In this document: positions 1-22,610 of the stretch, piece after piece
How the letters are laid out: each line of letters begins with the position of its first letter
How positions within the stretch are numbered: position 1 is the stretch's first letter
Source of the DNA: an uncultured Planctomyces sp.
GTDB taxonomy: Bacteria > Planctomycetota > Planctomycetia > Planctomycetales > Planctomycetaceae
Direction: 5' to 3'
Length of the DNA stretch: 34,800 nucleotides
Assembly (NCBI GenBank): GCA_937904325.1
Contig: CALGTK010000208.1
Span: 1 to 34,800, forward strand
The notes under the pieces: model-generated
Seen by the model: only the letters and a program-made list of their open reading frames with translations
What the model was told of the DNA's origin: nothing
Databases searched by the model: none
Program-made: the position numbers and the translations under genes

Positions 1-1634
1 AGAAACTTGAAGACACTCGGTCGAAGGTGCGTCAAGCGTCGGAAGCGTTGGAAGAAGGAAAACTGTCTCAGGCGTTGAACGAAGGGACGAGAGCCGAGCG
101 CGAATTGGAAAAGCTTCGTGACGAAGTTCGTCAGAAGGCTGCCGGTCAATTTGGAGAGGCGATGAAAGACCTTCGGCAGCAGGCGCGGGAGATTGGCGAA
201 CGCCAGGATCAAATCGCTGACGCACTGAACACGAACGCTCCAAAGAAAAACGATCGCCCTTCACTTCGTTCCGAGCAGAAGCCGTCCGGAGAAAAAATTC
301 AGAACGAGTTGGACGACCAGAATGAACAACTCGACCGTGTGCTGGAGCAAATGCGTGAGGTTGTCGAAAAAGCTGAAACCGCAGAGCCGCTGCTCGCTCG
401 GCAACTCTATGAGACCGTGCGTAAGACTCGGGCGGATCGAGCAAGTGAAGCTTTGGACGAGACCCGTGAACTTAACCGCAGAGGTTTAACTAAAGATGCT
501 GCAGTCGCTGAGCGGCGAGCTCACGAGGGTCTTGACCGAATGCAAAAAGGGATTGAACGAGCGGCCGAAGCAGTGCTCGGCAACGAACTGGAAACTTTAA
601 AACGAGCGAGTCGAGAACTGGCAGACGCGGGCAAATCCGTTCAGCAGGAGCTGGCCGAAGAAGCTCCGGCAGAGTTGCAGAAAATGCGAAATGGTCGTGG
701 ACCGAAACCTTCGGGCAATGAGAAACGCCCGGAAGGCGGTGAGTCGAAAAATGGACAGGAGCAGCAAGCAAAGCCCGGAGCCGAGGACCGCGAGCCACAA
801 CCAGGTGAACAGAAATTACCAGGCAATTTTGCCGCCGAGGGTGAGTCTCAGAACGGGAATGAGAAGTCAGAACGATCAGCGAACGCAGACCAGGAGAAGT
901 CTGATTCCAAAGGTGAGAATGGCGATCAGCCGGAAGATGAGAAGCAACCTGGTGATCCGGAGTCGAAACAATCTGGTGGTGACGATCAACCAGGCGAATC
1001 TTCTGAGAAACGCGATCAGTCTGGTAAGGAAAGTCAACCAGGACAGCCGCCTGGGCAAAGTCCGAAAGGTACGGGTAAAACTCCAGGCGAGAAGGCTCAG
1101 CCGGGTGAAGGCAAACCAGAAGAGTCACCGGCTGGAAAGGGTGCAGGTCAGACTCCGTCTTCGGAGCAATCAGGGAACTCGCAACCGAGTCCTCGACAGA
1201 AGCCAGGACTCCGGCCATCGGCGACTCCGCAACAGCCATCGAGTCAGCAGCAATCTGCGACGGCTCAACAGGGCGGCGGTTCGACCGTGCCAGGCAATCC
1301 GATTACCGGGAGGGGATTTGTGCAATGGTCGGATCAGATTCGAAATGTCGAGGAGTTGATCGACGATCCGACGATGCGAGCAGAAGTCGCTCGAATTCGC
1401 GAGGCCGCTCGCAGCATGAGGGCCGACTTCAAACGACATTCAAAGGAGCCTCAGTGGGGGCTCGTGCGAATGCAGATTCTGGAACCGCTCTCGGAAATTC
1501 AGGAAAAACTGAAAGAAGAGATCGCTCGTCGAGAGTCGCCAGAATCGTTGGTGCCGATCGATCGTGATCCCGTACCGGACAAATATGCGGAACTTGTTCG
1601 CCGCTATTACGAACGCATCGGATCGGGAAAGTAG
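1..1634 (+). CDS. Coiled-coil / low-complexity protein, 5'-truncated by the window edge
   Basis: The frame is open from the first bases of the window to a TAG at 1632-1634, so the gene begins upstream; a GTG at 27 is only the first possible start inside the window. The visible part has three sections. About 215 residues are highly charged, Glu/Arg/Lys/Gln-rich and predicted coiled coil. About 210 residues form a disordered linker rich in Gly, Gln, Pro, Ser, Glu and Lys. The last ~105 residues look globular, starting near a GRGFVQWSDQ motif, with a conserved-looking tail around PDKYAELVRRYYERIG. No membrane segment is seen in this part. It sits 88 bp upstream of the vWA/GATase-like gene on the same strand. 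In planctomycetes a large membrane/coiled-coil protein of this kind often follows MoxR, DUF58 and BatA-like genes; that context is inferred, because those genes would lie outside the window. Function unknown. Confidence 0.8.
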   Translation, partial: KLEDTRSKVRQASEALEEGKLSQALNEGTRAERELEKLRDEVRQKAAGQFGEAMKDLRQQAREIGERQDQIADALNTNAPKKNDRPSLRSEQKPSGEKIQNELDDQNEQLDRVLEQMREVVEKAETAEPLLARQLYETVRKTRADRASEALDETRELNRRGLTKDAAVAERRAHEGLDRMQKGIERAAEAVLGNELETLKRASRELADAGKSVQQELAEEAPAELQKMRNGRGPKPSGNEKRPEGGESKNGQEQQAKPGAEDREPQPGEQKLPGNFAAEGESQNGNEKSERSANADQEKSDSKGENGDQPEDEKQPGDPESKQSGGDDQPGESSEKRDQSGKESQPGQPPGQSPKGTGKTPGEKAQPGEGKPEESPAGKGAGQTPSSEQSGNSQPSPRQKPGLRPSATPQQPSSQQQSATAQQGGGSTVPGNPITGRGFVQWSDQIRNVEELIDDPTMRAEVARIREAARSMRADFKRHSKEPQWGLVRMQILEPLSEIQEKLKEEIARRESPESLVPIDRDPVPDKYAELVRRYYERIGSGK

Positions 1635-1722: not shown

Positions 1723-4173
1723 ATGATCTCAATCGGAAGTCCAGTCTGGCTGATCCCTGCCGTATTTGTCGCAGTCGTGGGTGTGTTGGTCGTCTGGAAC
1801 GCGGCTGGTAAAGGACGCGCTTCGGATCAGGTTCGTCGTCTGGCAGGAATGTTCAAGGTATTTGCGTTGTTTTTGTTGGCGGTTTGCCTGATTGAGCCTG
1901 TCTGGAGCGGTGTTCATCCGCGGCCGCATTCGAATTTATTTCTCGTTCTGACGGACACCAGTCAGAGTCATACTCGGTGGTCGAAAGAAGATTCTAACGA
2001 CGCAACGTTGGAAGCCGACTTTAAGCAAGCACTACAACCAACGCCTGAATCATGGCTGGATCGGTTGGGGCAGGATTTTGAAGTTCATCAGTTTGCGTTC
2101 GATCGTCGCGTGCGGACTGTTCGCGAATTTGACGACCTGACGTGGACGGGAGAGGCGTCTGCGCTGGGAGCGGCTTTGCAATCTGTGGGCAGCCGTTTCG
2201 AAGAACGCCATGTCGGTGGAATAGTCTTGCTGAGCGACGGAAACGCGACTGACCTTTCAGCTGACAACCTGAGTGAAACATTGGGCGAAAATGTCAAATT
2301 GCCACCGCTCTATCCCGTTCAGTTTGATGTGAAATCCTCGTTGCCGGATATCGCGATTGTGTCGGTTTCTGTAAGCGAAACACCGTTCGAAGACGCTCCA
2401 GTTTCTTTGCAGTGCGACGTGCGAATTCATGACTTGAGTATGCAGAAAGTCTCGTCTTCGGATCTGCTGGTCGAATGCTGCCTGGTCGATTCGGATGGGA
2501 AGACGGTCAAAACCGAACGGCAGGCAATCGGAGATCCGGATGCGACGCTGCCATTCCGCTTTCAGTTTCGACCGATCAAGACGGGTGTCGCCTTTTACCG
2601 GCTGCAAGTAACGCCGCTGGAGTTGGGCGGGGAAACTGACACTCCACTTCCAGAGAGCACGCTGGCCAACAACTCACGAATTGTGAAGGTGAATCGGGGT
2701 TCGGAAAAACATCGGATTCTTTATGTGTGTGGTCGGCCGAACTGGGAATTCAAATTCCTTCGACGTTCTGTTGAAGAGGATGACCAGATTGATCTCGTTG
2801 GGATGATTCGAGTTGCCAAGCGTGAAGCGAAATTCGATTTCCGGGGCAGAGACGGTCAGTCGAGCAATTCATTATTTCGAGGCTTCAAAGCTGAAACGGA
2901 CGAAGAAACGGAAAAGTATGACGAGCCGGTCATCGTTCGACTGAACACGAAAGATGCCGACGAATTGCGAGCGGGATTTCCGAAAGATCCGAAAGGGCTG
3001 TTCGGGTTTGACGCGTTGATCCTCGACGATGTTGAAGCGGAATTCTTTAACCGGGACCAGCTAACTCTGATCGAAAAGTTTGTCAGCGAACGCGGTGGCG
3101 GACTGTTGATGCTTGGCGGTGCTGAATGCTTCCATACGGGTGGCTATGAAAAAACTCCCGTTGCCGATGCGCTGCCCGTTTACCTGGACCGGGCGCAGTT
3201 TCCAGAATCGTCGGCGAGACTGACGCTTGATCTGACTCGTGAGGGCTGGTTGCAGCCGTGGGTTCGTCTTCGCCCAACAGAAGCCGATGAGCACGACCGG
3301 CTGAAAACAATGCCGGCGTTTCAAACTCTTAATCCAACTCAGGGAATCAAGCCTGGGGCGTCTGTGATGTCGACAGTTTCTGACGCAAACGGTGAAAGCT
3401 GGCCAGCACTGGTGACGCAGTCGTATGGCCGAGGGCGATCCGGAGCGATGCTTGTTGGTGACCTGTGGAGGTGGCAGGTCACCCGAAGCGAGGAGCAGCC
3501 GGAAGATCTTCCAAAAGCCTGGCGACAGACACTTCGGTGGCTGATCGCCGATGTTCAACAACGCGTCGGGGTTGAGATGACGACTGCCAGTGACGTTGCT
3601 CCTGAAGCAGTGCGAGTCAATGTGCGGGTTGTCAACGAGGAGTTTCTGCCGCTCGACAACGCTCAAGTTCAAATTCGAATGAGCGGCCCGGTCACTCTGA
3701 CAGAAACTGAAGCTCAGTTGGATGACAGCACCAGGTCCGAGCCTTCAGCAGAAACTGTGGCGTCTGACGGCATCGTCTTGAACGCCGAAGCGTCATTGGA
3801 GGAGCCAGGAGTGTACACCGCCGTCTTTGTGCCGAAGGAAGCGGGAGCCTGGACCGTCGAAGCGGAAGTGGCGACCGGTGAAGGAGAGAAACTGGCCGCA
3901 GACAAAGCCGGGTGGATTTACGAACCCCAGGTGGAAGAGTTTCAAAGACCGGGTATCAACGACGCACTCCTGACGAAACTTGCCGAGCAAACTGGGGGAG
4001 AGATGGTTGACGCTGAAGACCTCGATGATTTCGTCTCGAAACTGCAAAGCAAACCGATGCCTGTCGTCGAGGCGTGGACCATGCCTTTGTGGGATCAGCC
4101 GCTGGTGTTTCTGATCGTCCTTTGCAGTCTGGTCGGGGAGTGGGGGCTTCGTCGGGCAAACGGGTTACCGTAA
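1723..4173 (+). CDS. Membrane protein with vWA domain and class I glutamine amidotransferase-like domain
   Basis: 816 residues. Two N-terminal membrane helices (about residues 8-27 and 43-62) lead into a vWA-like domain. It has a MIDAS-type D-x-S-x-S at D78-S80-S82, a later TxxxxALGAAL stretch and an LLSDGNATD strand. The middle (about 325-500) resembles the GATase1-like domain of planctomycete vWA proteins: ILYVCGRPNWEF, then FDALILDDVEAEFF and LLMLGGAECFHTGGY, where the Cys may or may not be a nucleophile. A beta-rich Ig-like part follows. A C-terminal hydrophobic segment (PLWDQPLVFLIVLCSLVG) would anchor the tail. The ATG at 1723 has GAGAG just upstream. The order of domains is typical of the large subunits encoded with MoxR ATPases and BatA/BatB-like proteins. 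The likely role is an envelope-associated, metal-dependent scaffold or stress complex; no enzyme activity can be claimed. Confidence 0.85.
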   Translation: MISIGSPVWLIPAVFVAVVGVLVVWNAAGKGRASDQVRRLAGMFKVFALFLLAVCLIEPVWSGVHPRPHSNLFLVLTDTSQSHTRWSKEDSNDATLEADFKQALQPTPESWLDRLGQDFEVHQFAFDRRVRTVREFDDLTWTGEASALGAALQSVGSRFEERHVGGIVLLSDGNATDLSADNLSETLGENVKLPPLYPVQFDVKSSLPDIAIVSVSVSETPFEDAPVSLQCDVRIHDLSMQKVSSSDLLVECCLVDSDGKTVKTERQAIGDPDATLPFRFQFRPIKTGVAFYRLQVTPLELGGETDTPLPESTLANNSRIVKVNRGSEKHRILYVCGRPNWEFKFLRRSVEEDDQIDLVGMIRVAKREAKFDFRGRDGQSSNSLFRGFKAETDEETEKYDEPVIVRLNTKDADELRAGFPKDPKGLFGFDALILDDVEAEFFNRDQLTLIEKFVSERGGGLLMLGGAECFHTGGYEKTPVADALPVYLDRAQFPESSARLTLDLTREGWLQPWVRLRPTEADEHDRLKTMPAFQTLNPTQGIKPGASVMSTVSDANGESWPALVTQSYGRGRSGAMLVGDLWRWQVTRSEEQPEDLPKAWRQTLRWLIADVQQRVGVEMTTASDVAPEAVRVNVRVVNEEFLPLDNAQVQIRMSGPVTLTETEAQLDDSTRSEPSAETVASDGIVLNAEASLEEPGVYTAVFVPKEAGAWTVEAEVATGEGEKLAADKAGWIYEPQVEEFQRPGINDALLTKLAEQTGGEMVDAEDLDDFVSKLQSKPMPVVEAWTMPLWDQPLVFLIVLCSLVGEWGLRRANGLP

Positions 4174-4301: not shown

Positions 4302-5396
4302 ATGATGAGGCTCGCACCAATGAAATATGCATTCACCAGTTGGGGATGCCTGACGGTCTTGCTGGTGCTGGCATGGTGTCCCGTGTGTCATGCCGTGGAA
4401 GATGATGAATCGGAGGTCAATCCTGATCAGTCAGAGCAACCTGTTGAGCGGCTCGTAGTGATCGTTCGAGGTGCGTCCGGCACAGATCAATATGGCGAGT
4501 TGTTTGATTCGTGGAGCGGTCGCTGGGTGAAGGCCGCTGCGGATGGCAATGTAAAGGTCTTGCGAATTGGCCCTCGGAATGACATGTTTCGACTTCCAGG
4601 AACTTCGGAAGCGGCGGATGCCGATCGCCAGTTGATCGAGATGGCACTTCGCGACGCCGCATCGCAGGCCCGGTCGAAGCGACTGACGGAGCTTTGGATT
4701 GTGTTAATCGGGCATGGAACTTTTGATGGACGGTCGGCACGGTTCAACCTGCGCGGTAATGACGTCAGCGCAGAAGAATTGAAGAAGTGGCTCGATCCGA
4801 TTGCTTGTCCGATTGCTATTGCCAATTGTTCGTCGGCCAGCGGACCGTTTCTGAAGACACTTGCTGGTCAGAATCGAGTTGTGATGACTGCGACAAAGAC
4901 TGGAGCGGAAATCAACTTCGCCAGATTCGGAGAGTTTCTTTCCGAGGCTGTCGGTGATTCGAAGTTTGACCTGGATAAGGACGGACAGACTTCTGTTTTC
5001 GAAGCGTTTCTGTCGGCGAGTCGTCGCACGCTGGCTTTCTACGATGACGAAGGCCGGTTGGCGACGGAGCACGCGCTACTCGACGACAATGCGGATGGGC
5101 TTGGAGTTCGAGCTGACTTTTTCCGCGGCGTACGACTCGTCAAGAAGGTACAAGGCAGTGCGACGGTCGACGGTCGGTTGGCTCACCAGTTCCATCTGGT
5201 TCGAAGCGATTCTGAACGACAGCTTTCGCCTGCATCTCGACGACTGCGAGACCACCTTGAGCAGGCAGTGATTCAACTTCGTGATCGCAAATCGTCGATT
5301 GAAGATGAGGACGCTTACTACACTCAGTTGGAAGCGTTGCTCGTTCAGCTTGCGAAAGCGTACGAGGCGGCCAAGCCGGTTTCGGATTTTCGATAG
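4302..5396 (+). CDS. Exported clan CD (caspase/legumain C13-like) cysteine peptidase with EF-hand-like loops
   Basis: About 364 residues. A signal peptide ends at a cleavable CHA-V site (after Ala31). The core shows the clan CD layout: a hydrophobic strand ending in LIGHGT, with candidate catalytic His138, then 38 residues later a second strand ending in IANCSSASG, with candidate Cys176. This is followed by VVMTATKTGAEIN, which resembles the post-Cys strand of C13/caspase enzymes. Two calcium-loop-like motifs follow: residues 223-234 (DLDKDGQTSVFE, a textbook EF-hand loop) and 261-272 (DDNADGLGVRAD). The C-terminal ~70 residues are helical and charged. The start is uncertain among TTG 4299, ATG 4302 and ATG 4305; GAGG at 4288-4291 fits 4299 or 4302. 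It is 128 bp after the vWA/GATase gene on the same strand, so likely the same operon. The substrate is unknown. Confidence 0.75.
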   Translation: MMRLAPMKYAFTSWGCLTVLLVLAWCPVCHAVEDDESEVNPDQSEQPVERLVVIVRGASGTDQYGELFDSWSGRWVKAAADGNVKVLRIGPRNDMFRLPGTSEAADADRQLIEMALRDAASQARSKRLTELWIVLIGHGTFDGRSARFNLRGNDVSAEELKKWLDPIACPIAIANCSSASGPFLKTLAGQNRVVMTATKTGAEINFARFGEFLSEAVGDSKFDLDKDGQTSVFEAFLSASRRTLAFYDDEGRLATEHALLDDNADGLGVRADFFRGVRLVKKVQGSATVDGRLAHQFHLVRSDSERQLSPASRRLRDHLEQAVIQLRDRKSSIEDEDAYYTQLEALLVQLAKAYEAAKPVSDFR

Positions 5397-5521: not shown

Positions 5522-6415
5522 TTATTTCAGCAGTTGATAAAGTTGGAACAGGACCAGGCCAGCGGCGAAGAGTGACAGCCAGCCGATGCCGCTCCGCAGC
5601 GATCGACTTTGCAGTTTGTTACTAAGGTCGGATCCGATCCTTGCTCCTATTGTACCGCCGAACATCAGCGAAATTGTCAAAGCCAGGTCTACGTGCTCGT
5701 GCCAGGCATGAGAGATTGTGGCGAGGAACGACGTGATCCACACAACGATCAACGATGCCAGGATGGCTTTGCGAGATCGAATGTCGAGCAGATAAACGAG
5801 GCCGGGGATCAACAGCAGTGCGCCGCTGATTCCCAGCATTCCGGCGGTCACACCCGTGACGAACCCGAACAGCGCGAGGACGGGGATCGACAGCGTTCCG
5901 ACTCCGAGTTCTGAAAACGTGTCGACAGGTGGGATTACGATTTTTGCTAAAGCTCCCCGAGTGACAGGTCGGTTGGTGAGCTGACGACGCACTTCGTAAA
6001 GGCTGAATGACCCAATTCCGAGCAGCATGACCAGGTACGTGCTCAGGACGAGCAGTTCGCTGGCGTCGACGTTTCGATCGTTGATCTGAACGTCGCCAAT
6101 CTTACCGGCTTCGCTCAAGATGAGTGTGCCCAACAGCACTCCCATGATGATCCCGCCAGTGATGATCAAGGGGATGCGTAGCTGCATTCGGGTGACGCCA
6201 CGAGCAAGCAACGCGGCTGTCGACGGACCAAGAACCTGGCAGGCCGTCGATCCGACAGCGATCTCGATTGGAATGCCCAGCACGACGTGCAGGATGGGAA
6301 CCAGGAGAAAGCTGCCGCCGACTCCAAAAATTCCGGACAGGCCTCCAACAATGAACCCACAGCCGAGAACCAGCAGCAGTTCGTGTGGAAGCAGCAGCCC
6401 GAACACTGAAATCAT
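5522..6415 (-). CDS. TauE/SafE (TSUP) family membrane permease
   Basis: About 297 residues, almost wholly hydrophobic, with roughly eight membrane helices. The N-terminal repeat carries the family-typical GFIVGGLSGIFGVGGSFLLV stretch, and the C-terminal half repeats the pattern (GFVTGVTAGMLGISGALLLI, then IGARIGS). Members move sulfite, sulfonates or other small organic anions across the inner membrane; the substrate here cannot be read from sequence. The frame also has a TTG at 6448 that would add 11 residues. I prefer the ATG at 6415 because it starts just before the first helix, although its AAGG sits directly against the start codon. It follows a 56-residue membrane protein on the same strand with a short gap, so the two are probably cotranscribed. 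It converges with the clan CD peptidase gene. Confidence 0.88.
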   Translation of the reverse strand: MISVFGLLLPHELLLVLGCGFIVGGLSGIFGVGGSFLLVPILHVVLGIPIEIAVGSTACQVLGPSTAALLARGVTRMQLRIPLIITGGIIMGVLLGTLILSEAGKIGDVQINDRNVDASELLVLSTYLVMLLGIGSFSLYEVRRQLTNRPVTRGALAKIVIPPVDTFSELGVGTLSIPVLALFGFVTGVTAGMLGISGALLLIPGLVYLLDIRSRKAILASLIVVWITSFLATISHAWHEHVDLALTISLMFGGTIGARIGSDLSNKLQSRSLRSGIGWLSLFAAGLVLFQLYQLLK

Positions 6416-6461
6416 CCTTGGAAATTGTGTGGCAAACCGAACCGTCAAGAGCGACGACGGC

Positions 6462-16084: not shown

Positions 16085-16345
16085 CGCAGATTTTTCGATC
16101 CCATATTGGTTCCGCCCCTTCCTGCTGGAATTGCAGGCTCAGAGTTCGTTTGCCACAACACTTCCCCGGCAAAAGAACATCACTTCCCTTCTTAAATCTG
16201 AGCGTTGCGGCTTCGGCAATCCAACTCCTTCACACCTCTTTCGAATTTCTCACGCATCTTTCAACTTTGCTGGATTGCTTCGGCATTCGTGTGGCTGAGT
16301 CTTTGCGCGACGTCGAAAGACGGCTCAACGGATTTCTCGCATTTC

Positions 16346-17533
16346 ATGGACGAACACCGACAAAGGACGCCGGGACTCGTAGCGTCTGAACGGTCTCGCT
16401 CTTCGCGCGATTCTCGTTCGCCGGCGGCCAGACTCCAGTTCAGCGTACGCTTCGTATATTGGGCAATTTGCGCAGCGATACCGCTGTTGAGTCCTGGCTG
16501 CGCGTCGCTGAACGACAATCACTACTATGCTGGTCAAATTCCAGGCGGATACGACGCACCGCCAAATGCCAATCCGCTGACGATCGATTTCGCTCAGCTC
16601 AGCGGCACGGCGACGGATAGCGATGTCATCGCCAAAGGTGATGTTGTCAACGTCGAAATCGCCGCCAGCGTCAGCGCCAAAGACATCTTCAGCTACTCCG
16701 TGCGTGTTCGTGATGACGGGCAGGCCGATCTGCCGTTGATCGGGCCGGTCCCCATGGCCGGAATCAGTCTGGCCGACGCCGATGCGACGCTGACTCAATA
16801 CTGTGTCGCACGGAACATTTTCCGAGCCCCCAAGGTGAACGTCACGATCCGCCGGCGAAAGACAAATCGCATCCTCGTCGTTGGAGCCGTCAAAGAACCC
16901 GGCGTCAAAGAAATTCCGGTCGCGGAAAGTGATCTGCTTTCGATCCTGTTTCACGCCGGAGGCCTGGCTGATGATGCAGGAGCCAACATTGAGATTCGAA
17001 ACGTCCTGACGCGGGATGAAACGATGAACGAAGCCATCGCTGCGGATGGAAGCCGTGGCGGTATCAAGCAGACGGGGTATTCGTCATCAAACTTTGCACC
17101 TCGATCCGTGAAGATTGACCTGGTCTCCGCAGCTCAGTCAGGCTCGAACGATTACTTCGTCGGCGACCGAGGCGTCGTCGTCGTCGAGAAAACTGAGCCG
17201 AAAGCGGTCACTGTAACTGGCCTTGTCCGTAAACCTGGCCGAGTGGAATTTCGCAAAGGTGAAGATCTGCGACTGGTCGACGCGATTTCGCAGTCAGGCT
17301 ACACGTCATCACAGGTTGCCAACAAAGTCTACGTGATTCGCCAGCCGACTCCCGAATCCAGGTCGATCGTGATCCAAGCGAGCCTTTCAAAAGCGAGCCA
17401 CGATCCCGCCCACAATATTCGACTGGCTCCAGGTGACATTGTGAAGGTTGAACACACTCCAGCGACGATTCTTCTGGAAGCTGCACAGTTCATCCGAGTC
17501 GGCGTCTCCAGCAGCTTGAATCCACTGTTCTGA
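16346..17533 (+). CDS. Polysaccharide export lipoprotein (OPX, Wza-like)
   Basis: 395 residues from the ATG at 16346. A basic ~33-residue leader and hydrophobic helix end in the lipobox LSPGC (Cys52), so it should be a lipoprotein. The Poly_export domain follows (VIAKGDVVNVEIA; RVRDDGQADLPLIGPVPMAG; ADADATL; NVTIRRRK) and then two SLBB-like beta-grasp domains (RILVVGAVKEPGVKEIP; AVTVTGLVRKPGRVEFRKGEDLRLVDAISQSGY). The OPX family forms the outer-membrane channel for capsule or exopolysaccharide export, opened by its inner-membrane Wzc partner. The frame is open up to a TTG at 16205, but that would put two hydrophobic segments before the lipobox, so the shorter form is preferred. The Wzc-like kinase gene starts 57 bp downstream. 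Confidence 0.88.
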   Translation: MDEHRQRTPGLVASERSRSSRDSRSPAARLQFSVRFVYWAICAAIPLLSPGCASLNDNHYYAGQIPGGYDAPPNANPLTIDFAQLSGTATDSDVIAKGDVVNVEIAASVSAKDIFSYSVRVRDDGQADLPLIGPVPMAGISLADADATLTQYCVARNIFRAPKVNVTIRRRKTNRILVVGAVKEPGVKEIPVAESDLLSILFHAGGLADDAGANIEIRNVLTRDETMNEAIAADGSRGGIKQTGYSSSNFAPRSVKIDLVSAAQSGSNDYFVGDRGVVVVEKTEPKAVTVTGLVRKPGRVEFRKGEDLRLVDAISQSGYTSSQVANKVYVIRQPTPESRSIVIQASLSKASHDPAHNIRLAPGDIVKVEHTPATILLEAAQFIRVGVSSSLNPLF

Positions 17534-17589
17534 TCTTTGAGTAAACAAGATTTTCGCGTGGCCTGTATCCACCAGAAGAGACACGACAC

Positions 17590-19965
17590 ATGAGCCTGGA
17601 AAGTGCACATCCAGAACACGCAGCCGTTGATGTGGTTTCATCCGCGCCGACGACCAGTCAGGTTAACGTCTTCGCGACGATCCTGCGATTCGTGCATCTA
17701 GTACGGCTTCGCAAGTTCACACTACTCTCGTGGCTGGCTGTTTCGATCATCGGCGGAGCAATCTTCTACGCAGTCGCTCCGCGTCGCTACGACTCGAATG
17801 CGACGATATATGTGATCCGCGCCGAAGGGTCCGCCAAGTCAAACACCTCGATGGGTGACGAACAGGTCGACGTTCAAAAGATCATTGCGAACCACGTTCG
17901 AATTATTTCCAGCCCTGTCGTGCTCTCTGCAGCGTTACAGAAGATCGCTCCGGAAGATCGCATCGACCTGAATGGTGTGCGTGAGCAAAGCTGGCCCGCA
18001 GCGTTGGCGCAAAACCTCGTCGTGAACTTCGAACGCAACTCCAGCATGATCGACCTGCGGTATCGCTCGCTTGATCCGAAGGCGGCCAAAGCGATCGTGA
18101 CTGCGATTGTCGATGCTTATTTAGTCTTTGTGAACAAGACGACAAAAGAGGGTGCAGACAAAGATCTGACTAAACTTCTAGCTGATCGAGCCGAACTTTC
18201 GCAGCAGATAAAGAAGAACAGCCAGAATCTGTTCATGCTGCGTGAAGATTATGGAAACATTATCACCACGGATTCGAACTCATCGGTCGACATTGGGGCT
18301 CAGAGAATCCTTGATCTGAATCAGGAACTGACGGTTGCTGAGAAAAAACGTCGTGAGGCAGAAGCATTTCAGTTTGCGATTAATCGTGCGGTTACCAACA
18401 ACGAAGACCTTTCGCAGTTTGCGGTACAGTCTTTAGATGGAATTGGCGCCGATTTGATGAGGCAGGAATTCAGTCCGTCTCAGCAGGACGCACTCTTGAC
18501 CAACCGAATTATGGAGAAGTTGATTAAGGACGAAGCTGAACTGCGGGCTCTGGGTCAGATCTACCTGTACAACCATCCTGAAATTCAGAATCTGAACAGT
18601 CAGATTGAAATTGCTCGAGCATGGCTCGGAAATTATGAGAACCAGAGGATGATTAAACTTAAGGAACTAAAGGATTCGCGACTGGCGACAACACTGGCCG
18701 AGCTGGCAAATCAAAGAGTGCAACACACGCGTGAAAACGAACAGAGTATTCAGTCACAGTTGAGTTCCGCTCGAAACTCGTTCGAGGAACATCGTGAAAC
18801 GCGAATTCAGATCCAGCAACTGGAAACTGAAATCGTAACGCTGACCAGTTTTCAACAATCTACAGAAGAAGCAATCCAGGAATCTCAAAGGATGGGCAAC
18901 AGCGGTCTGGAGACAACGCCGATTCGTTTCCCGCTGGTGGCCCGCATGGCCGCGACTCCGAAGTTGACGCTGGTGGTTGTTGCGTCACTGTTTACTGGAT
19001 TGTTCTTTGGCCTCGCGACGATCTACATCAGCGATGTTCTCGATGATCGCTTCCGTTCTCCAGAAGAACTCCAGATGCAGATCGGAGTTCCCGTTCTAGC
19101 CATGGTCCGGCAGATGGACCCAACTGATGGAACTGGCGTTGATGCCATTCATACTCACGTGAAACCGAACGCCGTCGAAACCGAAGCGTTCCGATCATTG
19201 CGAACATCAATCGCATTCTCCGATGGCGAAACCAGACGCCTGATGGTCACGAGTTCTGAGCCGAGCGACGGTAAAACGACTGTGATGGCGAATCTCGCTG
19301 TAGCCTTTGCACAAAGTGGAAAGCGAACGTTGCTCATCGACGCCGACATGCGCCGCCCTGGTATGTCGACGATACTTGAAAAACGCGGACGAGAAGGGCT
19401 TTCGCAGGTGCTGCGTGATAACTCGCCGCTTGAAGAAAGTGTCGCGGAAAACATCGTTAACGGCGTCGTCAACGGGCTTGACTTCATTCCGTCGGGTACG
19501 CGACCAATCAACCCAGCCGAGTTACTGAGTAGTGATCGTTTCTCCGAGTTACTCGCTTGGGCAGAAACGATTTACGATCAGATCCTCGTCGATGCTCCGC
19601 CAATTCTCGCCGTATCGGACCCATCCATCATCGGCCGTATGGTTGACGGCGTTGTGCTCGTGATTCGCCCAGACCAGAACCGTCGCAAGATGGTGATTCG
19701 CGCTGCGGATTCGCTGAATGGTGCTGATATTAACCTGCTCGGGATTGCTGTTAACCGAGTTTCCGGCAAGGACGGTGGAGACTACTACGGTTACGGTTAC
19801 GGTTACGGTTACGGTTACGGGTATGGCTATGGGTACGGCAAGGAAGGCTACGGTAACGAGAAGGGCGATCTGGCTCCACTTGAAGAAGCCGAAACACTGG
19901 CGATGCCTGTGAACGCGTCATACAACGATGATGACGAATCTCAGCTGGAAAGAATTGCGGCATGA
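17590..19965 (+). CDS. Wzc-like chain-length regulator and bacterial tyrosine kinase (BY-kinase)
   Basis: 791 residues. The Wzz-type part is flanked by two membrane helices (about 43-61 and 455-480) with a long coiled-coil periplasmic stretch between them. The cytoplasmic kinase has Walker A SDGKTT with Lys562, Walker A' LLIDADMRRP with Asp584/Asp586, and Walker B LVDAPP with Asp668. The C-terminal tail has eleven tyrosines from 732 to 754, most in Gly-Tyr dipeptides, followed by an acidic end. BY-kinases phosphorylate their own tyrosine cluster; cycling of this state controls polymer length and export with the OPX partner. The Gly-Tyr run is encoded by a hexanucleotide repeat. The stop overlaps the start of the polymerase gene by four bases. 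Confidence 0.93.
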   Translation: MSLESAHPEHAAVDVVSSAPTTSQVNVFATILRFVHLVRLRKFTLLSWLAVSIIGGAIFYAVAPRRYDSNATIYVIRAEGSAKSNTSMGDEQVDVQKIIANHVRIISSPVVLSAALQKIAPEDRIDLNGVREQSWPAALAQNLVVNFERNSSMIDLRYRSLDPKAAKAIVTAIVDAYLVFVNKTTKEGADKDLTKLLADRAELSQQIKKNSQNLFMLREDYGNIITTDSNSSVDIGAQRILDLNQELTVAEKKRREAEAFQFAINRAVTNNEDLSQFAVQSLDGIGADLMRQEFSPSQQDALLTNRIMEKLIKDEAELRALGQIYLYNHPEIQNLNSQIEIARAWLGNYENQRMIKLKELKDSRLATTLAELANQRVQHTRENEQSIQSQLSSARNSFEEHRETRIQIQQLETEIVTLTSFQQSTEEAIQESQRMGNSGLETTPIRFPLVARMAATPKLTLVVVASLFTGLFFGLATIYISDVLDDRFRSPEELQMQIGVPVLAMVRQMDPTDGTGVDAIHTHVKPNAVETEAFRSLRTSIAFSDGETRRLMVTSSEPSDGKTTVMANLAVAFAQSGKRTLLIDADMRRPGMSTILEKRGREGLSQVLRDNSPLEESVAENIVNGVVNGLDFIPSGTRPINPAELLSSDRFSELLAWAETIYDQILVDAPPILAVSDPSIIGRMVDGVVLVIRPDQNRRKMVIRAADSLNGADINLLGIAVNRVSGKDGGDYYGYGYGYGYGYGYGYGYGKEGYGNEKGDLAPLEEAETLAMPVNASYNDDDESQLERIAA
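19789..19836 (+). repeat. GGTTAC hexanucleotide tandem repeat within the BY-kinase gene
   Basis: Five exact GGTTAC units (19789-19818) are followed by three third-base variants (GGGTAT, GGCTAT, GGGTAC). Each unit encodes one Gly-Tyr pair. Because the unit is two codons, gain or loss by slippage keeps the frame and changes only the number of tyrosines. Confidence 0.95.
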
Positions 19966-22610
19966 CCGGCAGACGATCGCTTTTGATCATCGACGCTGGA
20001 TTGCTGCTGGGAGCGTTTGCCGTCCCATTCGCTTTCGGTGGACGACATTCGATTGGTGAGTTTCTACTTGTTTGCTCAGCCGTGGTTTCCGCCGGCGGCT
20101 GGATTCTTCATCAAATGACAAGCGAAGAATCAGACTGGGTGAGGACTCGTGTCGAACCGTTGTTGCTGGCCGTTCTGGCCTTAGGGCTGCTTCAGATCGT
20201 GCCATTGCCGCACTCGATCGTCAGCATTCTCTCTCCAGCGATGGACGACGTTTTGCCGCTGCGGTCATCTTCAGCAGTAGAAGATGGTGTTTTCCACACT
20301 CCCTGGTCGCACCTTTCGATGAGCGTCAGCGAATCGGCCCCGGGACTGGCAATCGGTGTGGCTTATGTGCTGATTTTCCTCGTTACGGTGCAACGAATTC
20401 GAGCCGTCGACGATGCGTCGCGAGTGCTGAAGTTTGTCGCGTTGTCGGGCATCGCGATGACATTCTTCGCGTTCGTACAATTACTATTTTCAAACGGTCT
20501 CTACTTCTGGTTTATCGATCTGCCTCAAGGTGTTGCAGACGATCGACTGAAAGGAGCGTTCCTCAATAAGAATCATTTTGCTCAGTTTGCGGCACTATCG
20601 GTGGGCCCGCTGGTCTGGTGGTTGGGGATTCACACAGCGCCTGGCAAGCGACAAAGTTTCGAGCGGTCTCGCCGAAAACATTCACAGTGTTCGTCGCGTT
20701 TGTTTTCGACCGTTCTGTTAGCTGCGGCGTTGGGGACGGTGGTGACTGCTGTCGTAATCTCACGAGCACGCGGTGCGTTCGTCGCGCTGTTGATTGCCTT
20801 GGCCGTGCTGGTCGTGATGCTCTTTTTAAAGTCACTGATCAATCGCAAACAGGTTGCCGCGTTGGGCGCCGCGGCAGCGGTGGTCGTTCTTCTTTTCGGA
20901 ATCGTCGGGCACCGGGAACTCGCACGGGTGGCCGAGCGGCTTCATGATTGGGACAGCAACGGGCGCGTCGACGTATGGCAAGCAAATCTTGATGTCTTCA
21001 GCGAATTTCCTCTGGCCGGCACCGGCGTCGGAAGCCACGTTTACATTCATCAGAGGCATCTCGATCAGCCTTACAGCGTTGCCCGGTACACGCACGCAGA
21101 AAGCAGCTATCTGCAGATTGGTTCCGAAACCGGCGTGCTGGGTCTCATTCTGATGACGGGCTGCCTGGCGGTTGCCTTCTTCTGGTGCATCCGCGGAGTT
21201 CGGATCAGCCAGAACCGAACGGTGACGTTGGCGTTGTGCGGCGTCACGTGCTCGTTGCTGATTTCGTGCGTTCAGTCGGTCGCCGACTTTGTGTGGTACA
21301 TCCCAGGCTGCATGGTTCCACTGATTCTTCAACTGGCCTGCGCGTGCCGGCTTTATCAGTTTGAAGCAGACAACCAGGCGACCTTCGAAACCAAACGAAT
21401 CTGGCATCTACCGCGATCCAGCGTTGCAATAGCTACGCTGGTGTTACTGCCGCTGGCTGGTTGGATGGTTTCTGAATGGATGCCGCGGTTGCTCGCTGAA
21501 CCGTCGTGGTCGAACTATCGAAAAGTCGTTCTGGCTGATTACACCGGGAAAGACATTGCAGACAACGTCACCGGCAATGCTGAATCGAAAACCGCGACGC
21601 TGCAACAAATCATGCGAGACCTTCGCCACGCGGCGTTCAAGAATCCTAACGACGCTCGGATTCAGACGCGGTTAGCGGTTCAGTACGGACGAGTCTTTCA
21701 TTTGTTGCAGGCCGAGTCCGACAACGCCTTACCCCTCAGCCAGATTCGCGATGCGGCTGAAACCGGAGGGTTCCAGACTCACGAAGAAATGCTGGAATGG
21801 CTGACCCGAGCGTTCGGTGACAACATAAAGTACGCCTTCGCTGCGCAGAAGCACGCGCGGCGAGCCATCGAATTAAACCCGCTGGACGGCCGAGTGTGGC
21901 TGGCTTACGCCGAGCTGGCATTTCTGGATGACGCACCTGCTGGCTACGATCGCAAGTGTATCGACCAGAGTTTACGACTATTGCCGAACGATGCCTCGGT
22001 ACTCTATGTCGCCGGCCGTGAAGCACGTTTTGATGGCGACGTTGAAAAATGGGTGGAGCATTGGAAGAAGGCGTTTCATCGCGACGAATCTGTCCAGAAA
22101 CAGATCATTCGCCAGATGGCCGAATCGACCGAACTGCCTGTTGAAATCATCGTCAAAGCCTTTGAGCCAGATGTCGACGCACTGGATCGGACGATTGAGA
22201 TTCTTGGCGGTCTCGGGCAGGAACAGAACCAACGAAAGGCTCTTGAAGTTCTGGCCGCACGACTTATCAAGCGAGCTGAAACGTCTGGTAACGCTGACCG
22301 AGCAACTGACTGGCGCAAGGCGGCAGTCGCATTTTACCGATTAGACAACGTGGTGCAGGTGGAGTCCTGTTTTGAGAAAGCCGCCGAAGCAGCCCCGACC
22401 AATTTTCGAGTCCATCTTGACTACGGATCATGGCTATTGGCGCAAGGCCGTCCGGCCGCCGCGACGGAGCACCTGCAATGGTGTCAGAGAATGGTCCCGC
22501 ACGATGCCCAGGTTCAAAAGGCCATGAATGCTCTGAAGCGAGCCGTCCGCGACAGCGGCATGATTCGACAGGCAGCGGCCACCTCGTCGAACGATACGGC
22601 GATCCAGTAG
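19962..22610 (+). CDS. O-antigen ligase/polymerase (Wzy/WaaL type) fused to a TPR region
   Basis: 882 residues. The first ~510 hold about ten to twelve membrane helices. The large outer loop has the Wzy/WaaL signature: Arg in GRVDVWQANLDVF, then PLAGTGVGS, and THAESSYLQIGSETGVLG with His378. The remaining ~340 residues are helical repeats in TPR style (KHARRAIELNPLDGRVWLAYAEL; NFRVHLDYGSWLLAQGRPAAATEHL). Enzymes of this class join lipid-linked sugar repeat units in the periplasm (polymerase) or transfer them to an acceptor (ligase). The TPR tail suggests a protein partner, as in other fused polymerases of environmental bacteria. It overlaps the kinase gene by four bases, so the three exopolysaccharide genes form an operon. 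No glycosyltransferase, flippase or regulator gene is present in this cluster. Confidence 0.87.
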   Translation: MTGRRSLLIIDAGLLLGAFAVPFAFGGRHSIGEFLLVCSAVVSAGGWILHQMTSEESDWVRTRVEPLLLAVLALGLLQIVPLPHSIVSILSPAMDDVLPLRSSSAVEDGVFHTPWSHLSMSVSESAPGLAIGVAYVLIFLVTVQRIRAVDDASRVLKFVALSGIAMTFFAFVQLLFSNGLYFWFIDLPQGVADDRLKGAFLNKNHFAQFAALSVGPLVWWLGIHTAPGKRQSFERSRRKHSQCSSRLFSTVLLAAALGTVVTAVVISRARGAFVALLIALAVLVVMLFLKSLINRKQVAALGAAAAVVVLLFGIVGHRELARVAERLHDWDSNGRVDVWQANLDVFSEFPLAGTGVGSHVYIHQRHLDQPYSVARYTHAESSYLQIGSETGVLGLILMTGCLAVAFFWCIRGVRISQNRTVTLALCGVTCSLLISCVQSVADFVWYIPGCMVPLILQLACACRLYQFEADNQATFETKRIWHLPRSSVAIATLVLLPLAGWMVSEWMPRLLAEPSWSNYRKVVLADYTGKDIADNVTGNAESKTATLQQIMRDLRHAAFKNPNDARIQTRLAVQYGRVFHLLQAESDNALPLSQIRDAAETGGFQTHEEMLEWLTRAFGDNIKYAFAAQKHARRAIELNPLDGRVWLAYAELAFLDDAPAGYDRKCIDQSLRLLPNDASVLYVAGREARFDGDVEKWVEHWKKAFHRDESVQKQIIRQMAESTELPVEIIVKAFEPDVDALDRTIEILGGLGQEQNQRKALEVLAARLIKRAETSGNADRATDWRKAAVAFYRLDNVVQVESCFEKAAEAAPTNFRVHLDYGSWLLAQGRPAAATEHLQWCQRMVPHDAQVQKAMNALKRAVRDSGMIRQAAATSSNDTAIQ

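Follow-up and report, generated by a model that had tools for sequence, protein, structure and literature searches.

Bacterial caspase homologues are usually discussed as stress or cell-death proteases. The locus described here raises the question of whether this holds for a caspase-like protein that is encoded directly behind a membrane protein with vWA and GATase-like domains. The original prediction had named it a clan CD peptidase and possibly a calcium-gated effector of an envelope complex. The gene lies in a stretch of 34,800 nucleotides from an uncultured Planctomyces sp., and this whole stretch is called the window. The features needed below, in window positions, are the following.

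3..1634, + strand: DUF4175-like coiled-coil gene, C-terminal part, cut by the contig end
1723..4173, + strand: vWA/GATase membrane protein, 816 aa (PF07090), with TM helices, vWA (~65-200), GATase1-like (~328-612), an Ig-like region and a C-terminal TM
4302..5396, + strand: caspase/legumain-fold protein gene, coding for 364 aa from the ATG at 4302 to a stop codon whose last base is 5396
4302..4394, + strand: putative Sec signal peptide, residues 1-31
4440..5225, + strand: caspase-fold (clan CD) domain, residues 47-308
4713..4715, + strand: His138 of GHGT, the dyad histidine
4827..4829, + strand: Cys176, the would-be nucleophile
4968..5003, + strand: EF-hand-type loop 1, D223-E234, DLDKDGQTSVFE
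5064..5117, + strand: acidic loop 2, T255-D272, TEHALLDDNADGLGVRAD
5229..5372, + strand: C-terminal helical hairpin, residues 310-357

The open reading frame was confirmed, as were His138 in an LIGHGT and Cys176 in an ANCSSASG context. The gene is present in a single copy in its own genome, and orthologues are spread across Planctomycetota and Verrucomicrobiota; all counts were drawn from sampled genomes, many of which are metagenome assemblies. The predicted signal peptide is plausible as a Sec signal, judged from an N-terminal hydrophobic stretch (LTVLLVLAWC) in a region that ends in PVCHA ahead of VE. In the structural model this region has low pLDDT and contains a single helix (16-24). As read from the sequence, the protein is apparently exported.

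The fold was analyzed with an AlphaFold model, for which an alignment of 34 relatives served as input (mean pLDDT 87, pTM 0.83; mostly >90 within the caspase-fold domain). Comparison with PDB chains by VIA-align gave legumain as the top match (4nol_A, Z 18.7, rmsd 2.9 over 199 residues), followed by plant metacaspases at Z ~17 (metacaspase 4, Z 17.5) and GPI8 at Z 16.2. Caspases matched at Z ~15.7 (a chain of a caspase-8 zymogen complex). His138 and Cys176 sit just past strands 128-136 and 171-175 of the model. A helical hairpin follows the domain (model helices 310-328 and 336-357); in the alignment of relatives it is found in orthologues and is missing from the aligned paralogues and distant homologues. 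Thus structure prediction and structural comparison returned clan CD proteins, as had been proposed.

Profile searches recognized the protein poorly. No Pfam model matched it at E 1, including C13 (PF01650) and C14 (PF00656), and there was no significant NCBIfam match. Neither PF01650 nor PF00656 matched anything in its own genome, and PF01650 also missed the family when run against 59 related genomes. A profile of the 34 relatives found no PDB sequence, and the sole matches of a single-sequence PDB search were weak ones to calmodulin over the calcium-loop region (E 0.2-0.7). Some distant homologues, however, give a PF01650 score in the part of the sequence that bears His and Cys, and one of them (L077) passes the cut-off. 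Because the structural matches and these scores agree, the predicted clan-CD fold is well supported. By the Pfam model the protein does not belong to family C13. It shares with that family (legumain, GPI8/PIG-K) the fold and the order and context of His and Cys, but differs in its EF-hand-type loop, in a Cys that is not conserved and in its link to a MoxR/vWA operon. The bacterial metacaspases or orthocaspases (C14) and the pseudo-orthocaspases also have the caspase fold, and loss of the dyad is known among them. The dyad is conserved in 64% of planctomycete metacaspases (PMC3501461), and cyanobacterial pseudo-orthocaspases carry Tyr-Ser variants of it (PMC6426788). In contrast to these proteins, the protein of the window lacks a PF00656 match, and its family loses only the Cys while always keeping the His and has one fixed operon partner.

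The window starts at a contig end, and the operon is therefore cut. Another contig of this genome, C464, ends with the part of the DUF4175-like gene that codes for the N-terminal 807 aa; full-length relatives of the DUF4175-like protein match PF13779 weakly. Taken together, C464 and the window give the order TPR protein, DUF4159, MoxR, DUF58, BatA-like vWA, DUF4175-like, vWA/GATase, caspase-like, and the order from MoxR to the caspase-like gene is identical in a Phycisphaerales chromosome. Hence the linkage of the proposed three-gene operon held, but its extent was too small, with further genes of its upstream half on C464. The suggested MoxR/vWA context was likewise borne out, with MoxR, DUF58 and BatA in order with the caspase-like gene. 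At 64 loci with at least 9.5 kb of upstream sequence, the vWA/GATase gene was present at 60, the DUF4175-like gene at 55, BatA at 51, DUF58 at 46 and MoxR at 37, a fall that stems partly from distance to the locus edge. The Bat (aerotolerance) operon has the same adjacent genes, MoxR-DUF58-BatA, in the same order; the operon described here adds DUF4159, the DUF4175-like and vWA/GATase genes and the caspase-fold gene. To our knowledge no Bat operon with a caspase-like subunit has been described, and a search of the open-access literature, with most subscription papers outside its reach, found no paper on the present operon with such a subunit.

Linkage to the vWA gene had been predicted to be conserved; it proved to be very strong, and co-occurrence was almost complete. 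Among 124 orthologues the vWA/GATase gene lies directly upstream in 109 (of 118 with flanking DNA) and nearby in 2; 7 had none in the flanking sequence covered and 6 had no upstream sequence. In 59 related genomes, a vWA/GATase orthologue (E <1e-50) was found in 35 of the 36 genomes with the caspase-like gene and in none of the 23 without it. A sample of 392 genomes of the phylum contained 33 with strong matches to both genes, none with the vWA gene alone and one with the caspase-like gene alone, the last being a 62% complete assembly. Both genes are kept even where they are unlinked, ~95 kb apart in one genome (G006) and on different contigs in another (G036). Distant caspase-like homologues (~25-30% identity) likewise lie behind a vWA/GATase gene. 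The link between the two genes is real and deep, and in two phyla it makes the MoxR/vWA partner of a caspase fold nearly obligate.

The domains predicted for this neighbour were confirmed by its AlphaFold model (pLDDT 80.5). Structural matches were the GATase-like proteins STM1381, STM3548 and 3rht (Z ~23) and vWA proteins including BatB (3ibs). D78, S80 and D172 of the vWA domain are invariant in orthologues. Beta-galactosidases ranked high in Foldseek, but with an rmsd of >25 A; these matches were dismissed as a multi-domain artefact because re-alignment with VIA gave GATase-like and vWA matches instead. An analogy to GPI transamidase or oligosaccharyltransferase assemblies was rejected as well, since the OST48-type match (12 A rmsd) was too weak. 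In the GATase1-like domain (window 2704-3558) the Cys of LGGAECF is mostly Ser in orthologues, so that glutaminase activity appears unlikely.

Two calcium-loop-like motifs had been placed after the catalytic core. The loops are real, but the placement was wrong: the structural match over residues 47-308 takes them in, and both are therefore parts of the caspase-fold domain. Side-chain ligands of an EF-hand loop occupy positions 1, 3, 5, 9 and 12. Loop 1 follows this canonical pattern with D223, D225, D227, S231 and E234, which are identical in 124/124 orthologues. Only 19 of 310 alignment columns are invariant, and random placement would put all five ligands among them at p ~5e-7. Since the five positions are invariant in homologues, the calcium-type loop is not a chance resemblance. 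With Glu at position 12 and modelled helices on either side (209-216 and 232-250), loop 1 has the features of an EF-hand and is a putative calcium site. Loop 2 is acidic and conserved, but is no canonical EF-hand; E256, D262 and D265 are invariant, D261 is kept in 122/124 and position 272 is D or E in 114/124. No Pfam EF-hand model matched the protein at E 1; up to 5 of 34 relatives match one. Among 17 planctomycete caspase-type proteins checked, four have an EF-like loop 52-70 residues past the Cys; the calcium-type element is therefore not unique to this family.

The nucleophile behaved differently. Of the 124 non-identical orthologues, 94 have Cys at position 176; the remaining 30 (24%) carry Thr (23), Ala (4) or Ser (3) there instead, and by conservation the position ranks 111th of 310 columns. 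The calcium loop is thus better conserved than the nucleophile. His138 was found in every orthologue, although its invariance at the 80 loci from a pattern scan of genome contigs is partly by construction, as the scan required GHG and TEH..DD; the loop-1 residues and Cys176 lie outside these patterns. A set collected without motif filter gave Cys in 45/51 and His in 51/51. No orthologue lacks both residues, but Cys176 is not conserved in the family, and the dyad as a whole is not kept in the way expected of a family of enzymes. By parsimony the nucleophile state changes 15 times, at least four of these changes being forced by starred branches; the tree was built without the Cys column by a quick method, has many weak forks, and the count cannot separate gain from loss. 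Orthologues without Cys belong mostly to Phycisphaerae-type Planctomycetota and to Verrucomicrobiota, with isolated cases in the window's own family, while Cys176 is present throughout the window's genus.

The Cys-less members keep their place in the operon, as 26 of the 30 (26/27 with upstream sequence) lie directly behind the vWA gene. They are not decaying, because their mean pairwise identity is 0.52, compared with 0.46 for members with Cys, and because both sets share 19 invariant columns, among them those of His138 and of the loop-1 ligands. Distant or paralogous copies are often without Cys too. Distant homologues from other planctomycete lineages (L074-L082) lie mostly behind vWA/GATase genes, and only some of them have the Cys. 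A Cys-less paralogue clade adjoins other MoxR and DUF58 genes (L068:6047-7006 and L072:6067-7002), which suggests that the pairing of caspase fold and MoxR extends beyond a single operon.

Based on these observations, we favour the view, at a probability of roughly 0.55, that the protein serves a Bat-type envelope complex as a peptide-binding caspase-fold subunit stabilised by calcium, and is catalytic in some lineages only. The exported subunit would join the MoxR AAA+ ATPase, DUF58, and the BatA-like vWA, DUF4175-like and vWA/GATase membrane proteins. Calcium bound in loop 1, and perhaps in loop 2 as well, would stabilise the segment that joins strands 5 and 6, the counterpart of the caspase inter-domain linker. 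The clan-CD cleft with invariant His138 and S180 would bind a peptide or a partner protein, and the MIDAS vWA/GATase neighbour would hold the subunit at the membrane. Cleavage by Cys176 would be optional, a property that roughly three in four orthologues have retained, the window's protein among them, with binding or scaffolding common to all. What the computations show is the fold, conservation of the calcium-loop residues, the operon, co-occurrence with vWA/GATase and a nucleophile position that has changed repeatedly; that the protein binds calcium, is exported and forms a complex we infer. The GATase1-like domain may be a second enzyme fold in the complex that is also non-catalytic.

The alternative closest to the original prediction is a calcium-gated cysteine peptidase, in which filling of the loops with calcium would let Cys176 and His138 cut an envelope substrate, the Cys-less members being lineage-specific, derived pseudoenzymes. 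The legumain/metacaspase fold is consistent with it, as is the dyad, which is intact in 94/124 orthologues and in the protein of the window, and calcium-dependent metacaspases are known (PMC6426788). However, Cys is missing in several lineages of both phyla where the operon and the other invariant residues are kept, and the nucleophile is under weaker constraint than the calcium loop. A calcium-gated effector is viable for Cys-bearing members such as that of the window, but because 30/124 orthologues retain operon, His138 and calcium loop without the Cys, it is unlikely as the common function, and as an account of the family we consider it rather improbable. If Thr or Ser at position 176 stood in for Cys and His138 served as the base, every member except the four with Ala would be an enzyme. 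That Thr is the main replacement (23/30, with Ser in 3) and that His138 is never lost would fit such an interchangeable nucleophile; the Ala members would not, and no clan-CD peptidase is known to us that uses Thr as its nucleophile, which makes this proposal quite doubtful.

Still less probable is a role as conflict or cell-death effector. It has a precedent in ternary systems, where MoxR and vWA genes occur with caspase-like domains and ~70% of effector-position caspases are inactive (PMC7159879). In those systems the caspase domains are variable and fused to vWA or third-component proteins, whereas here the protein is separate, apparently exported and has a constant partner. The present genes are of Bat type (DUF58, BatA, DUF4159) in a constant arrangement with no effector swapping. 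PADLOC matched neither the caspase-like protein nor its vWA neighbour and gave only a weak match for MoxR. None of the C464 genes was recognised as a third component (VMAP, iSTAND or FtsH pair), albeit without profiles for those domains.

The family can do without the nucleophile but not without the loop, His138 or S180, and calcium-stabilised binding is therefore a likelier shared function than cleavage. Against the favoured view stands that Cys176 is kept in 76%, including all of the window's genus. In addition, a purely structural role explains poorly that His138 is invariant even without Cys, and Thr or Ser might act as nucleophile in some lineages. Peptidase activity of the window's own dyad-bearing protein is possible from its sequence. 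The stronger claim, that an envelope machine of two phyla uses the caspase fold as a calcium-dependent, non-proteolytic peptide-binding subunit with the Cys nucleophile as a dispensable extra, is put forward tentatively, at somewhat less than even odds. If this is true, the caspase fold does something other than cut proteins in this family. The nearest published idea concerns MoxR-vWA ternary systems, whose inactive caspase domains were proposed as peptide-binding or dominant-negative modules (PMC7159879). In the present family evolution guards a calcium-type loop more than the nucleophile, and natural Cys, Thr, Ala and Ser versions in one operon slot offer a defined case of a caspase fold in which cutting is optional. 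Bat-type operons, which are poorly understood, gain a further subunit with this family.

Downstream, a TauE/SafE permease gene (window 5522-6448, − strand) is convergent with the caspase-like gene. It was ruled out as a partner, being on the opposite strand and a conserved neighbour in the genus only. Further along, window 16205-22610 (+ strand) carries an exopolysaccharide-type cluster with a Poly_export/SLBB protein, a Wzz with AAA_31 ATPase and a Wzy_C ligase with TPR repeats.
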